DNA of 32,921 nucleotides from Sulfuricurvum sp. (GTDB taxonomy: Bacteria > Campylobacterota > Campylobacteria > Campylobacterales > Sulfurimonadaceae): NCBI GenBank assembly GCA_003245815.1, contig QKCD01000017.1, positions 1 through 32,921 of the forward strand, in the 5' to 3' direction. The translations under genes were made by a program, and so were the position numbers. This document shows positions 303 through 25,889 of this stretch, piece after piece. A model generated the notes under the pieces. That model did no database searches, was not told the DNA's origin, and worked only from the letters and a program-made list of their open reading frames with translations. How positions within the stretch are numbered: position 1 is the stretch's first letter; every line of letters begins with the position of its first letter.

Positions 303-842
303 CTATTTTTTCTGTTTTTGGATCTTTTTGTACTCTTTTTCGAACTTCTTCCGGCGGCTGTAGGAGAGCTTTTCGATAAAGAGTCTCCCCTCAAGGTGGT
401 CGATCTCGTGCTGGATCGCGATGCTGAGCAGACCGTCGGCACGGATCGTCCGTTCGTTGCCGGCACGGATCGTCCGTTCGTTGCCGTGGCGGTCCTGATA
501 GCGGAGCGTGAGGGTTTCGAACCGTTCCACGTCTTCGTAGAAGCCCGGGACGCTGAGGCAGCCCTCTTGGTAGAAGGTGCTGCCGTCGGTTTCGAGAATC
601 ACGGGATTGATGATCTCCAGGAGTTCCTCTTTGGGCTGATGCCCCTCCTCGTCGGCGAGGTTGATGATCAGAGCGCGGATCGGGCGGGCGACCTGGATGG
701 CGGCAAGACCGATGCCGTTGGAGGCGATCATCGTTTCGTACATATTGTCGAGAAAGGTGTGGAGGCCGGCATCGAAGCGTGTGACCGGCTCCGAGCGCTC
801 TTTAAGGCGCTTGTCGGGGTAGGTGACTACGGGAAGGATCAT
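303..842 (-). CDS. def: Peptide deformylase
   Basis: GIGLAAIQV, EGCLSVPG and QHEIDHLEG motifs of peptide deformylase. Contains an in-frame 8-aa tandem duplication. Confidence 0.95.
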   Translation of the reverse strand: MILPVVTYPDKRLKERSEPVTRFDAGLHTFLDNMYETMIASNGIGLAAIQVARPIRALIINLADEEGHQPKEELLEIINPVILETDGSTFYQEGCLSVPGFYEDVERFETLTLRYQDRHGNERTIRAGNERTIRADGLLSIAIQHEIDHLEGRLFIEKLSYSRRKKFEKEYKKIQKQKK

Positions 843-4663: not shown

Positions 4664-6004
4664 ATGCCCTTTAAGGCCCTGAGAGAGCGTATTACGTCGC
4701 AGAAGCTCTCTGTCCCCTTCGGTACGGTCGTGCGCATCAGCGCAACGGTCATCGTGGCCGAGGGGATGCACGCCAGCATCGGCGACACTGTCACCATCGT
4801 TTCCCAGGTAAGCGGCGACGAGACACTGGGGATGGTGACGGAGATCGAGGGGCTGCGCTTCTTCATCACTCCCTTCCGCTTTATCGAGGGGTTCCGCACC
4901 GGCGATAAGGTCTACCTGAACCAAAACGGCCTCAATATCCCCGTCGGGGATGCCTTGCTCGGCCGGGTTGTGGACCCTTTCATGCGCCCTATCGACGGCA
5001 GGGGGCCGATCCACTGCCTCCAGAGCGAGGCGATTATGAAAGAGCCGATCGCCGCGATGAAACGGGGGATGATCGACGAGGTCTTCAGCGTCGGCGTCAA
5101 GACGGTCGACGGGCTGCTCACCTGCGGCAAGGGGCAGAAGCTGGGAATCTTCGCCGGCAGCGGCGTCGGCAAGTCGACGCTGATGGGGATGATCGTCCGT
5201 GGTGCGGAGGCCCCGGTGAAGGTGGTCGCCCTGATCGGCGAGCGGGGACGTGAGGTACCGGAGTTCATCCAGAAGAACCTCGGCGGCAACCTGGAGAATA
5301 CGGTGATTATCGTCGCCACGAGCGACGATTCGCCCCTGATGCGCAAGTACGGGGCCTTTGCGGCGATGAGCGTCGCCGAGTTCTTCAAGAACCGGGGGCA
5401 GGACGTGCTCTTCATCATGGACTCGGTGACACGCTTTGCAATGGCCCAGCGTGAGATCGGGCTGGCCCTGGGGGAGCCCCCGACCTCCAAGGGGTACCCT
5501 CCCTCGGCCCTGACCCTGCTGCCGCAGCTGATGGAGCGGGCGGGCAAGGAGGAGGGGAAGGGCTCGATCACCGCCTTCTTCACGATCCTGGTCGAGGGGG
5601 ACGACCTGAGCGACCCGATCGCCGACCAGTCCCGCTCCATCCTCGACGGCCACATCGTCCTTTCGCGGGAGCTGACGGACTTCGGCATCTATCCCCCTAT
5701 CCACATTCTCAACTCCGCATCGCGGGTCATGAACGACATCATCAGTGTCGAGCATTTCGAAGCGGCCAAAAAGTTCCGACGCCTCTATACTTTATTAAAA
5801 GAGAACGAGATGCTGATCCGCATCGGGGCCTACGTGAAGGGGAGCGACAGGGAGCTGGACGAGGCGATTGAGAAGAAGGAGGCGATGGAGCGCTTCATGA
5901 GCCAGGGGGCGATGTACAAGACGACGTTCCGGGAATCCGTCGAGGCGATGATCGCGATGATGGGTATTTCGCCGAAGGGAGCGGTGGCGCGGGATCAAGC
6001 TTAA
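4664..6004 (+). CDS. fliI: Flagellar export ATPase FliI
   Basis: Walker A GIFAGSGVGKSTLMGM, ALIGERGREVPEFI, RFAMAQREIGLALGEPPTSKGYPPS; 446 aa. Order folE-fliI matches what I recall for Campylobacter. Confidence 0.95.
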   Translation: MPFKALRERITSQKLSVPFGTVVRISATVIVAEGMHASIGDTVTIVSQVSGDETLGMVTEIEGLRFFITPFRFIEGFRTGDKVYLNQNGLNIPVGDALLGRVVDPFMRPIDGRGPIHCLQSEAIMKEPIAAMKRGMIDEVFSVGVKTVDGLLTCGKGQKLGIFAGSGVGKSTLMGMIVRGAEAPVKVVALIGERGREVPEFIQKNLGGNLENTVIIVATSDDSPLMRKYGAFAAMSVAEFFKNRGQDVLFIMDSVTRFAMAQREIGLALGEPPTSKGYPPSALTLLPQLMERAGKEEGKGSITAFFTILVEGDDLSDPIADQSRSILDGHIVLSRELTDFGIYPPIHILNSASRVMNDIISVEHFEAAKKFRRLYTLLKENEMLIRIGAYVKGSDRELDEAIEKKEAMERFMSQGAMYKTTFRESVEAMIAMMGISPKGAVARDQA

Positions 6005-6042
6005 GCAGCATTAAGCCTTAGGATTGCTTAAGCATATTCTAA

Positions 6043-7389
<1,347 letters not shown>

Positions 7390-14209: not shown

Positions 14210-14656
14210 TTAGGGTTCGCATGTCGCGCCGTGGCGCGTTTTCTGATGCAGGGCTTCGCCGCGGGCGATGGCGTCGCACTGCTCGTTCTCGTCGTGGCCG
14301 TCGTGTCCCCGCACCCAGACCGCCTGGATGCGGTGGGGGGCGGCGGCTTCGAGGTAGGCCTGCCAGAGGTCGGGGTTCTTGACCTTGGCGAAACGGCGCC
14401 GTACCCACCCCTCGAGCCATTCATTGATCCCCCTCACGACGTAGGAGGAATCGGAGGTGATCACCACCTCGCAGGGCTCCTTAAGGGCGCGGAGCCCCTC
14501 GATGACGCCGCGCAGCTCCATCCGGTTGTTGGTCGTATGCGGCTCTCCCCCGCGGATGACCCGCTCGTGGCCGTTATAGCGCAGGATCGTCCCGAATCCT
14601 CCCGGGCCGGGGTTACCCAGGGCAGAACCGTCACTGAAAAGAGAGATGCGTTTCAA
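14210..14656 (-). CDS. rnhA: Ribonuclease HI
   Basis: [56 protein letters not shown] start inside the 3' end of the upstream TPR gene. Confidence 0.93.
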
Positions 14657-15674
14657 AACGTTCCTTCACCAGCATTGGTTCGCTCCAGACGGAGTCGATG
14701 GCATTACAGTTGGGGCAGCGGTGAAAGGCGAAGGGAAGGACCTGTTTGCAATGGCGGCAGAGGTATTCGAAGGTGAGTGTCGCCCCCGAATGGCCGCCTT
14801 TGTGAAGCTTGATCAAAACATCGAGTTCGAAGGTATCGCTGTTTTGAGCATGGTCCACAAACCCTTTCGCGCTGAAGAGTTCCCGCAGATAACCGTTGTG
14901 TGCAATTATATCGAAATCGCACTGATGGGGTTCTAAACGCCAGAGGATGTCGCTGATGCGTTCCGCCTGCGCCTGGTCGAAGTGGCGCCACGCCTTCCCG
15001 GGAGCGTGTCGGAAGAGGTACTCGAAGACCATATAGGCGAGCATATGGTGGGTTTCGTAGCGGGCGATGAGGGCGTCGGTTTTCTCGTCGGGACCGATGG
15101 TCGTGTCGTGCAGAAGCGCCAGCAGCTCGAGGTAGTGGCGTTCCTTTCGGGCGTCGCTGCCCAGTTCGTCGAGGGGCTCGAGGACGTCGAGAGCGCTGCG
15201 GTAGTCGTTGAGCCGCTCGTAGACCAGCAGCAGGTAGTGCAGGGCCTGGGGCGTACGGGGATGGTGCCGCAGGATCTGCAGGAAGATCTCCTTGGAGCGC
15301 TCGAGGAAACCGGCCCTGAAATAGGTCTGTCCGAGGAGAAAGAGCGTGTCCCGCCGTTCTGAGGGGTCCTGCTGCCGCTCGATCAGCAGCTGGTAGATCT
15401 CGATGCTCTTTTCGAAGTCGCCGTTTTTCGTGTAGGAGTTGGCCAGCAGCAGCCACGACTTCTCCGACATGGTGCCGCTGCCGATCAGGTCGGCGAGTTC
15501 GTTTTTGCTCGGCAGGGTGTGGAACTGCCTTAGGAAGCGGTCGAGGTGGCGGTGGTCCTCCTTCGCCTTGAAGCGTCCCCACCAGTAGCTGAAGAAGGCG
15601 ATGACGAAGATCAGGACGAAAAAGACGATGACACCGAAAAGGGGATCGCGGAATTCGATGAATAAACCGTCCAT
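14631..15674 (-). CDS. TPR membrane protein with C-terminal rubredoxin-like zinc motif (LapB/YciM-like architecture)
   Basis: N-terminal TM (VIVFFVLIFVIAFFSYWWG), TPR-like helices, C-terminal CRHCKQVLPFAFHRCPNCNAID. Likely start ATG 15674. Confidence 0.78.
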   Translation of the reverse strand: MDGLFIEFRDPLFGVIVFFVLIFVIAFFSYWWGRFKAKEDHRHLDRFLRQFHTLPSKNELADLIGSGTMSEKSWLLLANSYTKNGDFEKSIEIYQLLIERQQDPSERRDTLFLLGQTYFRAGFLERSKEIFLQILRHHPRTPQALHYLLLVYERLNDYRSALDVLEPLDELGSDARKERHYLELLALLHDTTIGPDEKTDALIARYETHHMLAYMVFEYLFRHAPGKAWRHFDQAQAERISDILWRLEPHQCDFDIIAHNGYLRELFSAKGFVDHAQNSDTFELDVLIKLHKGGHSGATLTFEYLCRHCKQVLPFAFHRCPNCNAIDSVWSEPMLVKERFETHLSFQ

Positions 15675-15798
15675 ATAATGCGCGCTCCTTTGGCGTGGTC
15701 GGAGAAGATTATAGCCAATAGGAACTAAACGCATCACCGGGAAGCGGGCCTATCATGAATATGTGATAAAAATGCGACGTTAAAATAATAATTATATC

Positions 15799-15827
15799 TT
15801 GACTTAATACGTCAAAAAGAGTACAAT
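15799..15827 (+). promoter_or_regulatory. Sigma-70-type promoter (TTGACT-N17-TACAAT) with inverted repeat TTGAC-N7-GTCAA over the -35
   Basis: TTGACT 15799-15804, TACAAT 15822-15827, 17-nt spacer; TTGAC 15799-15803 / GTCAA 15811-15815. Confidence 0.75.
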
Positions 15828-15865
15828 GACGATGAAACTGAAAAAAGTAGGGGGTTTAATCGCTA

Positions 15866-16531
15866 ATGACAGTCTGTTATATTCGACCCGATAAATCCTT
15901 CGACGGGGCCTTCGAGCAGCTTAAAACGGTGAATGCCTACATTGAGCGCAAGGGGTTGACCGTCGACCAGGAGTTTATCGACCAGAAGTCTCAGAACAAG
16001 CGGTTGAGCGAACGCAACGAAGTCCTGTCGTTTTTTCAGTCATTGCGTGACAGTACGGTGATCGTGTACGATGCCTGGGTACTGAGTTCGTGGATCGAAG
16101 ACCTGGTACAGATGATTAGTTGTCTGTTGAAAAACGGGATGCGGATCCACTTCGTCAAGCCGTCAGTCATCATCGACCGCAGCAGCGATACGGTGGTGGT
16201 GCTGGGATTGATCGACCAGCTGCGTCAGACACTGCAGCAGGATGCCAAGAAGGCGATCGGCAGACCGAAGGGAAGCCGTTCCGCGTCAAAGTTCGATCAG
16301 TTCCATGACGATATCATCAGACATCTTAGAGATCATAAAAGCGTCAGCGAGATGGCCCGTATTTTCGGGGTGAGCCGGAGTTCTTTAAAAGATTACATCG
16401 AATCGCGCGAGCTGAAAGAGGTGGCGTTCGGAGGACACAGCATGGAGCTGCCTGAAAACGGAGAAGCGCACGTGATTAAAACCATAAACTGCCCGGACAG
16501 CGGGCAACAACAGATGAAGGAGCATAGATGA
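15866..16531 (+). CDS. Serine recombinase (resolvase N-domain)-like protein with HTH, lacking catalytic serine; probable regulator
   Basis: Resolvase-like fold pattern (CYIRPDKSFDGAFEQLKTVNAYIERKG…VIVYDAWVLSSWIEDLVQMISCLLKNGMRIHFV) plus Hin-like HTH (DHKSVSEMARIFGVSRSSLKDYI); RVST and DRLxR motifs absent. Confidence 0.8.
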   Translation: MTVCYIRPDKSFDGAFEQLKTVNAYIERKGLTVDQEFIDQKSQNKRLSERNEVLSFFQSLRDSTVIVYDAWVLSSWIEDLVQMISCLLKNGMRIHFVKPSVIIDRSSDTVVVLGLIDQLRQTLQQDAKKAIGRPKGSRSASKFDQFHDDIIRHLRDHKSVSEMARIFGVSRSSLKDYIESRELKEVAFGGHSMELPENGEAHVIKTINCPDSGQQQMKEHR

Positions 16532-17970
16532 GTGTAGAGGCAAGCAGCACACAGGCTGTAAAACAAAGGACGCCGTGGCGTATTATGCGCTACTGGTTTT
16601 TCGGCGGGATTACGCTGTTCGCACTGTTGGCACCGTGGATTCGGGTGAACGAGAATCACCTCTTCCTGCTGAGTTTTGACAAGCTGAAACTGCACCTGAT
16701 GTTCGTACAGTTCGATATGCAGGAGATGTACCTGATGCCGTTCCTGCTGATGATCCTCTTTATCGGCGTTTTCGGGATCACAGTAGTCGGCGGCCGGGTA
16801 TTCTGCGGCTGGATGTGTCCCCAGACTATTTTCCGTACCATCTATCGCGACCTCATTGAGACGAAGCTGTTGAAGCTGCGCAAGCGGATCAAGAACAAGC
16901 AGCAAGAACCCGACATGTCCAAACCGGAGAACAAGACGAAAAAAGTGATCGCCATGCTGCTCTGGACGGCGCTCGCCTTTGTCGCGGCGGCGGACTTTAT
17001 GTGGTTCTTCGTACCGCCGGAGGATTTCTTCGCCTATATGATGAACCCGGGTGACCATATGGTGCTCGTGACGACGGTTTTGATCATCGTCGGCTTCCTG
17101 CTCTACGACGTGGTCTTCATGAAGGAGAACTTCTGTGTCTACGTCTGCCCCTACTCCCGGATCCAGTCGGTACTCTATGACGACGATACGGTTATGGCGA
17201 TCTACGACGAACACCGCGGCGGCAAGATCTACAGCGAAGAAAAAGAGAAGATGTACACCAAGCAGAAAGATCTGCAGGCGGTCGAACCAAACGCCGAGTG
17301 TACGGCGTGTGAAAGCTGTGTGACGGTCTGTCCGACCCACATCGACATTCGCCAGGGTCTGCAGCTGGAGTGTATCAACTGTCTGGAGTGTGTCGACGCC
17401 TGTACGACGGTCATGGGCAAACTGGGCAAAGAGAGCCTGGTCCGCTGGTCGAGCGACCGCGAGGTGCTCTACCGCAACGGCAAAACCCAATACTTCCGTC
17501 CGAAGATCATCGGCTACATCGTCGTCCTGCTGATCGTCAGCGCGATTCTTGGGGTCATGGGCAGCAAGAAAGAGCATATGCTGCTGAACGTCAACAAAGA
17601 GAATCGTCTCTACGACATTACGGTACTGGATGACGGCCGCCACAAGGTGGATAACGCCTACATCTTCCTGCTGCAGAATACGCAGAACGTAGACCATACG
17701 TACTACTTCGACATCATCGCGCCGAAGGGTATGGAGGGCAAGATCAAGATCGCCAAACCGAGCGATCCGTTCAAAGTCCGCCCGGAAGTCAAAAAGAAAC
17801 AGATCGTCCTGCTCTATACGGACGAGATGCTTGTCGACGACGCGACGAAGGATACGGTCATCCCGATCACGATCCGCGCCTACGCCCTCGAAGACAAAGA
17901 GAATATCGTGGTTGAACGTCAGTCAACCTTCACCTTCCCGCGTTCGGACATTTTCAAGAACGCGAAGTAA
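16528..17970 (+). CDS. ccoG: Cytochrome c oxidase accessory protein CcoG (polyferredoxin)
   Basis: CGWMCPQTIFR, CVYVCPYSRIQSVLYD, CTACESCVTVCPTHIDIRQGLQLECINCLECVDAC; multiple TM; C-terminal Ig-like domain. Confidence 0.95.
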   Translation: MSVEASSTQAVKQRTPWRIMRYWFFGGITLFALLAPWIRVNENHLFLLSFDKLKLHLMFVQFDMQEMYLMPFLLMILFIGVFGITVVGGRVFCGWMCPQTIFRTIYRDLIETKLLKLRKRIKNKQQEPDMSKPENKTKKVIAMLLWTALAFVAAADFMWFFVPPEDFFAYMMNPGDHMVLVTTVLIIVGFLLYDVVFMKENFCVYVCPYSRIQSVLYDDDTVMAIYDEHRGGKIYSEEKEKMYTKQKDLQAVEPNAECTACESCVTVCPTHIDIRQGLQLECINCLECVDACTTVMGKLGKESLVRWSSDREVLYRNGKTQYFRPKIIGYIVVLLIVSAILGVMGSKKEHMLLNVNKENRLYDITVLDDGRHKVDNAYIFLLQNTQNVDHTYYFDIIAPKGMEGKIKIAKPSDPFKVRPEVKKKQIVLLYTDEMLVDDATKDTVIPITIRAYALEDKENIVVERQSTFTFPRSDIFKNAK

Positions 17971-21855: not shown

Positions 21856-22350
21856 ATGGCCGTGAAAGCGCTGCGCTTTGTCGCCGACTGCCACCTCGGC
21901 AGGACGGCGAAATACCTCCGGCTTCTCGGTTACGACACCCTCTATTTCAACCATATCGCCTATTTCAACCATATCGCCGATGATGACCTTATCGCACTGG
22001 CACAGGCCGAGGGACGTATCATCCTGACGCGGGACCGGGAGCTTTCGCAGCGTAGGGATGCCCCCTGCTACTTTCTCGAAAGCGTCGACACGGTGGCGCA
22101 GATGGAGGAGCTGATCGGACGTTTCGCGCTTGCCGCAAATGCCGCCGTGCTGACCCGCTGCTTGGTCTGCAATACTCCCCTGCAGCCGATCGACAAAGCG
22201 CAGGTGCGCGACCGCATCCCCCCGAAGATCGATCGCTTCTTCGACGCGTTTGACTACTGCCCGAGCTGCGACAGGGTCTACTGGCACGGGGACCACTACA
22301 AGCGGATGAAGCACTTTGCGGAACTGCTGCTGGGGAATGGAGCAAAATAG
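21856..22350 (+). CDS. Mut7-C RNase domain protein with zinc ribbon
   Basis: RFVADCHLGRTAKYLRLLGYDTLY…GRIILTRDREL…CLVCNTPL…YCPSCDRVYWHGDHYKRM. Carries an 18-bp tandem duplication. Confidence 0.88.
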   Translation: MAVKALRFVADCHLGRTAKYLRLLGYDTLYFNHIAYFNHIADDDLIALAQAEGRIILTRDRELSQRRDAPCYFLESVDTVAQMEELIGRFALAANAAVLTRCLVCNTPLQPIDKAQVRDRIPPKIDRFFDAFDYCPSCDRVYWHGDHYKRMKHFAELLLGNGAK

Positions 22351-25814: not shown

Positions 25815-25889
25815 GGTCGCGTAACTCAGTGGTAGAGTGCCACCTTGACATGGTGGTGGTCACTGGTTCGAATCCAGTCGTGACCACCA
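25815..25889 (+). tRNA. tRNA-Val (anticodon GAC)
   Basis: GGTCGCG…GGTAGAGTG…CCACC-TTGACAT-GGTGG…GGTTCGAATCC…CGTGACC-A-CCA; acceptor, anticodon and T arms pair; CCA encoded. Confidence 0.95.

Follow-up and report, generated by a model that had tools for sequence, protein, structure and literature searches.

A serine recombinase homologue upstream of ccoG has lost its predicted catalytic residues and is a probable autoregulated transcription factor in Campylobacterota

In a 32,921-nucleotide stretch of DNA from Sulfuricurvum sp. (contig QKCD01000017.1 of GCA_003245815.1, here called the window), a gene resembling the small serine recombinases runs directly into ccoG, which raises the question of what a recombinase with an apparently dismantled active site is doing at this locus. 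An initial annotation, made from the letters of the DNA, read the gene as a recombinase domesticated as a transcription factor that possibly regulates itself and controls cytochrome oxidase maturation. Its 221-aa open reading frame and the 4-nt ATGA overlap with the start of ccoG were both recovered here (Table 1). The identity of ccoG is unambiguous (TIGR02745, 464 bits), and its product is a cupric reductase that aids cbb3 assembly (PMC8267372). On the other side, a homologue of the divergent 368-aa frame is found beside the regulator gene in many relatives, though not all, and is treated here as a neighbour whose status as a target is only putative. The explanation that we consider very probable is that an exapted, catalytically dead serine recombinase serves as an autoregulated transcription factor that binds a 41-bp repeat and represses its own gene and ccoG, with a wider regulon in the window's family and a thiol-reactive signal as the probable input.

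Table 1. Positions of the regulator gene, its neighbours and its predicted control elements in the window
Feature	Position	Strand	Remarks
Divergent open reading frame	14631..15737	-	368 aa as listed; neighbour of the regulator gene
Operator O1	15774..15815	.	42-bp inverted repeat GCGACGTTAAAA...TTAATACGTCAA; right arm in the -35/-10 spacer
Promoter TTGACT-N17-TACAAT	15799..15827	+	sigma-70-type
Dyad TTGAC-N7-GTCAA	15799..15815	.	noted in the initial annotation; -35 hexamer plus O1 right arm
Operator O2	15826..15866	.	41-bp inverted repeat ATGACGATGAAAC...GGTTTAATCGCTAA; transcription start region to first base of the start codon
Regulator gene (predicted catalytically dead small-serine-recombinase homologue)	15866..16531	+	221 aa; from open reading frame, profile, fold and alignment
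Regions of the regulator protein			resolvase-like fold, residues 1-129; HTH, residues ~142-190; invariant C86 and C209
HTH recognition region	16340..16408	+	nearly invariant SVSEMARIFGVSRSSLKDYIESR, residues 159-181; coding stretch
ccoG, cytochrome c oxidase accessory protein	16528..17970	+	TIGR02745; ATGA overlap with the regulator gene

Three further features of the window were recorded outside this locus. On the minus strand, 25851-26008 matches the Rfam family HPnc0260, a bacterial antisense RNA (64.1 bits, cut-off 59), and overlaps the 3' half of a tRNA on the opposite strand (25815-25886). The peptide-deformylase-like frame at 303-842 (-) contains a short in-frame tandem duplication, GNERTIRAGNERTIRADG, and the unrelated frame at 21856-22350 (+) contains another, YFNHIAYFNHIADDD; each may be real or an artefact of assembly.

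The resolvase-like N-terminal domain that had been proposed for the protein was borne out by profile search, with a match to Resolvase (PF00239) at E=2.7e-6 and 28 bits against a cut-off of 23.3, and the same family was matched by 49 of 53 relatives. The proposed C-terminal helix-turn-helix (HTH) also stood, as HTH_7 was matched by 33 of the 53 relatives, although the window protein itself reached only E=0.13 for that model. A single-sequence phmmer search of the PDB returned nothing but chance HTH or repeat matches, so a family profile was required to detect homology to known structures; the profile built from the alignment of the 53 relatives (profile A1) matched gamma-delta resolvase (1gdt) over 29-176 with an E-value of 5.6e-7. 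In addition, an AlphaFold2 model of the protein (pLDDT 83.5) gave as its best Foldseek matches in the PDB a gamma-delta/Hin chimaera, Tn3 resolvase and other serine recombinases (E 4e-7, prob 1.00), with a further fold match to the Sin-DNA regulatory complex (2r0q). Profile search, PDB sequence match and fold prediction agree that the regulator is a homologue of the small serine recombinases.

Upstream of the gene, the near-canonical promoter described in the initial annotation was confirmed. The dyad that had been placed over the -35 is also real, being unique in the window (0.03 expected per window by chance), but the operator is a larger repeat, O1, of which the dyad includes only the right arm. 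The 17-bp dyad was rejected as the operator on the grounds that divergent families (e.g., L053 and L063) keep a pair of arms 41 bp across and do not keep a perfect TTGAC-N7-GTCAA. The consensus is an inverted repeat of 40-42 bp, TTGACGAWWAAA-N17-TTTWWTCGTCAA, the geometry of which is conserved across families. The left arm of O1 is degenerate in the window (GCGACG) and intact in many relatives, and the right arm of O2 falls between a Shine-Dalgarno-like AGGGGG and the ATG. The upstream regions of relatives show, in order, TGACG..., TTGACttttatcGTCAA over the -35, TATAAT, TGACGATGAAA at the start site and TTTAATCGTYA at the start codon.

In scores with the half-site TTGACGAWAAA, the arms pair at 40-42 bp from tip to tip. 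Nearly all relatives have O1, over the -35 and the spacer, and O2, which spans +1 to the ATG, is a feature of the window's own family, f1, which we judged to be Sulfurimonadaceae-like and refer to as the home family. When the right arm was held fixed in 17 promoters from other families and every other offset was scored, a single peak appeared at 40-41 bp, with a 3-position window mean of 9.99 against a median of 5.09. The own-promoter site was also present in four genomes that had played no part in defining the motif (G282, G293, G318 and G391). Among the 33 sites at other targets that the search pattern collected, there was also an enrichment, not required by that pattern, of a T placed two positions inside the AAA (52/66 arms). 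At the own promoter, and likewise in four promoters of SQR-like genes, the right arm TCGTCA lies within the 17-nt spacer between -35 and -10.

It is the position of the sites, with an arm in the spacer and O2 lying over the transcription start and start codon, that leads us to favour repression rather than activation, and from this placement the regulator is probably a repressor. The same protein could instead be an architectural or DNA-looping factor that shapes these promoters with no signal-dependent repression, in the manner of resolvase dimers that occupy accessory sites and take no part in catalysis. Serine recombinases are known to bind accessory sites, as in the Sin-DNA regulatory complex, and the long 41-bp span and the two tandem sites suggest a higher-order assembly. 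However, sites lying on the -35 and -10 elements and on the start codon are where a repressor would sit, and the invariant cysteines of the protein suggest that its activity is regulated. We consider a purely architectural role improbable. For a repressor as well, the 41-bp span and the tandem arrangement may call for a tetramer or for bent DNA.

In order to follow the operator beyond its own promoter, genomes were scanned with the strict pattern and with up to three mismatches, using the reversed pattern as a control. At up to three mismatches, 10 gene-bearing genomes of the home family contained 37 sites (4 for the reversed pattern), and 12 gene-less genomes of the same family contained 5 weak sites (8 for the reversed pattern). 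With up to two mismatches and with own-promoter sites excluded, 16 sites were found in the 10 gene-bearing genomes versus none in the 12 gene-less ones. The strict pattern was present in 37/45 gene-bearing versus 1/12 gene-less home-family genomes (Fisher p 4e-6), a test in which the related genomes are non-independent and own-promoter sites, which vanish together with the gene, are counted.

A recurrent target among these sites is a divergent promoter between an operon encoding a small one-TM protein, an M48 peptidase and a prmC-like protein, and a gene for a small Cys-containing membrane protein. The predicted operator of this locus in the window's own genome (G000:C85:2970-3008, L105) is the one further convincing site there besides O1 and O2. 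Searches with relatives of the two small proteins matched no Pfam or NCBIfam family. In nine gene-less genomes, the M48 orthologues lack the operator, the best candidates there having 4-7 mismatches; the positive M48 loci came from the pattern search itself, and it is the negative side of this comparison that is unbiased. An operator on a promoter need not be bound by the product of that gene, and the 41-bp repeat might therefore belong to another regulator that merely counts the recombinase-like gene among its targets. We regard this as very unlikely, given that the sites are gone genome-wide in related gene-less genomes, the M48 orthologue included, that the HTH is the best-conserved portion of the protein in the alignment of relatives, and that the operator is composed of resolvase-like inverted half-sites.

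Other recurrent predicted targets of the recombinase-like regulator include an SQR-like flavoprotein gene, with MsrA and ketopantoate-reductase genes nearby, which carries the operator in several relatives, as well as genes for c-type cytochromes, a rhodanese, a NifX-like protein and an ArsP-like permease. The SQR-like gene was rejected as a universal target, as the copy in the window's own genome has no operator site. The ccoNOQP genes were likewise rejected, with no site above shuffled background at any of 30 ccoN loci. The earlier suggestion of control over oxidase maturation is accordingly supported for ccoG itself and does not extend to the oxidase genes. Scans of 12 genomes from other families found convincing sites at the own promoter and little elsewhere, and for this reason the regulator-ccoG operon looks to have been autoregulated ancestrally, with the wider regulon appearing as a later expansion within the home family.

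Half-sites arranged as inverted repeats with an AT-rich centre resemble resolvase sites, and O1 and O2 stand in tandem like the sub-sites of res, so that the possibility of a working site-specific recombinase, unusual in its active site and with the 41-bp repeats as its crossover (res or inversion) sites, has to be weighed. The catalytic residues were aligned across the 53 relatives, in the numbering of a gamma-delta resolvase reference sequence, with a second reference (L066) taken from the data. The alignment upheld the reported loss of the nucleophilic serine and of R68: position 10 is D in the window protein and Ser in 0/53 relatives, and R68 is replaced in 53/53, by V or T. The position of R71 is mostly S, T or N and that of D67 usually W, the DRLxR segment of the window protein reading W-V-L-S-S. 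In the E124/R125 region of helix E, the R125 column is gapped in 48/53 relatives. The earlier statement that the active-site arginines are missing therefore holds for R68, R71 and the R125 region and fails for R8 and R45, each kept in 51/53 relatives; these two, together with the pocket residue Q19 (53/53), had been overlooked.

As judged from the alignment, catalysis is lost along with the catalytic serine, the arginines of DRLxR and a portion of helix E. In favour of an active enzyme, R8, Q19 and R45 are retained and some members (e.g., L006 and L054) have a Ser at position 9, one ahead of the catalytic one. This neighbouring serine is not conserved, however, and the gene is a single-copy chromosomal one fixed next to ccoG in many families, with sites in the promoters of unrelated operons. 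Together with the missing residues, these observations make an active recombinase highly unlikely.

The gene is under strong purifying selection. In 11 close pairs dN/dS was 0.02-0.12, from which we conclude that the protein is maintained and not decaying. The regulator was matched in 69 genomes among 100 relatives, and profile scores over 397 sampled Campylobacterota genomes were bimodal, with ~98 genomes at E<1e-48 and, after a gap, a second group at ~1e-16 to 1e-23 that consists mostly of another degenerate recombinase (family f9). Phage and plasmid collections yielded distant recombinases only (~25% identity), and the gene was rejected as part of a mobile element. A decaying mobile-element relic caught upstream of ccoG, which the missing catalytic residues and the recombinase nature of distant plasmid and phage relatives might suggest, is refuted by this selection signal and is further opposed by the near-invariant HTH, the conserved operator and the presence of the gene in ~98 genomes of the phylum-wide sample.

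Linkage to ccoG had been proposed at the outset as a check. All homologues at tblastn E<1e-19 with downstream DNA available immediately precede ccoG in the same orientation, at a gap of mostly -4 to +40 nt (maximum 176 nt), with the one exception of G076, in which the regulator gene is truncated and the operator is still present. In that genome, an SQR-like flavoprotein gene lies immediately 3' of ccoG (L200, G076:C45), with the truncated regulator and the operator on another contig, and this adjacency is an independent contextual link between the regulator system and the SQR-like gene. In G098, frameshifts and stops disrupt the copy of ccoG that adjoins the regulator (L049, ~4700-6200), the regulator is intact, and an intact ccoG is found elsewhere (C1:133815-135164). 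Genomes without the regulator retain ccoG. Two genomes, G077 and G094, each carry two equally scoring ccoG copies, of which only one adjoins the regulator.

The f9 proteins form a separate case. The homologues at L064:3989-4618 (-) and L065:3974-4609 (-) were rejected as orthologues, being away from ccoG and lacking both cysteines and the operator. They represent a different degenerate serine recombinase upstream of rplI-hslVU, in which Ser10 is lost and NVFGR stands in place of DRLGR, and similar scores were found in many f9 genomes. This is possibly a second, independent domestication.

As to what the regulator might sense, C86 and C209 are invariant in 53/53 relatives, and neither gamma-delta resolvase nor L066 has an equivalent of them; the conserved C-terminal Cys falls in a low-confidence region of the AlphaFold2 model. 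The two invariant cysteines suggest thiol-based sensing, and a signal might enter through them and through the catalytic pocket, which is partly preserved. From these residues, the regulator probably responds to a thiol-reactive signal, with reactive sulfur species, redox state or copper as the leading candidates because the predicted targets include the CcoG, SQR-like, rhodanese and cytochrome genes. SqrR and BigR, reactive-sulfur repressors of the ArsR family, likewise have two conserved cysteines, and some of the targets here (SQR-like, rhodanese and respiratory genes) recall theirs. In contrast to SqrR and BigR, the regulator has an unrelated fold, the SQR-like gene of the window's genome is without an operator, and sensing is putative. 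A more elaborate picture, which we advance only tentatively, is that of phylum-specific one-component regulators in which the R8/Q19/R45 pocket and the two cysteines would detect a ligand that is thiol-reactive or anionic (reactive sulfur, redox or Cu), and in which a tetramer bound to tandem res-like sites of 41 bp would silence a ccoG-anchored respiration and sulfur regulon.

The domestication as an autoregulating transcription factor put forward in the initial annotation is supported by residue loss together with dN/dS, by ccoG synteny, by the operator shared across families and by the co-occurrence of gene and operator. That annotation had noted neither the full geometry of the operator nor O2, the further targets or the two invariant cysteines. 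As a mechanism, we infer that a small serine recombinase of the resolvase/invertase type lost catalysis and became a dedicated transcription factor, which as a dimer or tetramer would bind the 41-bp inverted repeat through its HTH. Occupation of the site over the -35 and spacer and, in the home family, of the second site from +1 to the start codon would exclude RNA polymerase, and the autorepressor would in this way also set the level of the co-transcribed ccoG, which encodes a cupric reductase and cbb3-oxidase assembly factor. In the home family, the regulon would have been extended to further envelope, respiratory and sulfur genes.

Among known systems, Tn3/gamma-delta resolvase (TnpR), Sin and the Hin/Mpi invertases share the N-terminal resolvase fold and the C-terminal HTH, and the predicted sites of the regulator resemble those of small serine recombinases in their inverted half-sites with an AT-rich inner part and in lying over the own promoter. 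The regulator differs from them in lacking the catalytic Ser, R68, R71 and the helix-E Arg region, in having two invariant Cys, in residing off mobile elements at a fixed position beside ccoG, and in having extra targets. Sites of small serine recombinases measure ~25-34 bp, and the 40-42-bp sites of the regulator are longer than known resolvase sites. Tn3 TnpR bound at res autoregulates both tnpR and tnpA (PMC7157771), and because Tn3-type resolvases already autorepress at res promoters, regulation here may be a legacy of the ancestral enzyme, now released from recombination.

Recruitment of mobile-element DNA-binding proteins as host regulators has precedents in Ner/SfsB, antitoxin-derived Xre and RHH proteins, as reviewed in PMC8987985, the passages of which consulted here name no serine recombinase turned non-catalytic host transcription factor. 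As in those cases, a mobile-element DNA-binding protein appears to have been adopted by the host; unlike them, the catalytic domain has been kept but is predicted to be dead. A search of literature accessible without subscription found no description of this family, no experiment on it and no report of an inactive serine recombinase as a regulator or of ccoG regulation in Campylobacterota, and a word search of a 2019 review of respiratory regulation in this phylum found no recombinase, resolvase or ccoG.

If this explanation is true, the regulator would provide a clear example of how a serine recombinase, its catalysis lost, can become a widespread transcription factor of the cell that reads an operator code of its own, and in which the autoregulation of resolvases at res has been retained and extended to host genes for respiration and sulfur metabolism. 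The predicted sites and targets are directly testable, and annotations of the type "recombinase family protein" may conceal other regulators. The Campylobacterota, in the Sulfurimonadaceae-like family and several others, would gain a regulator unmentioned in the literature searched.
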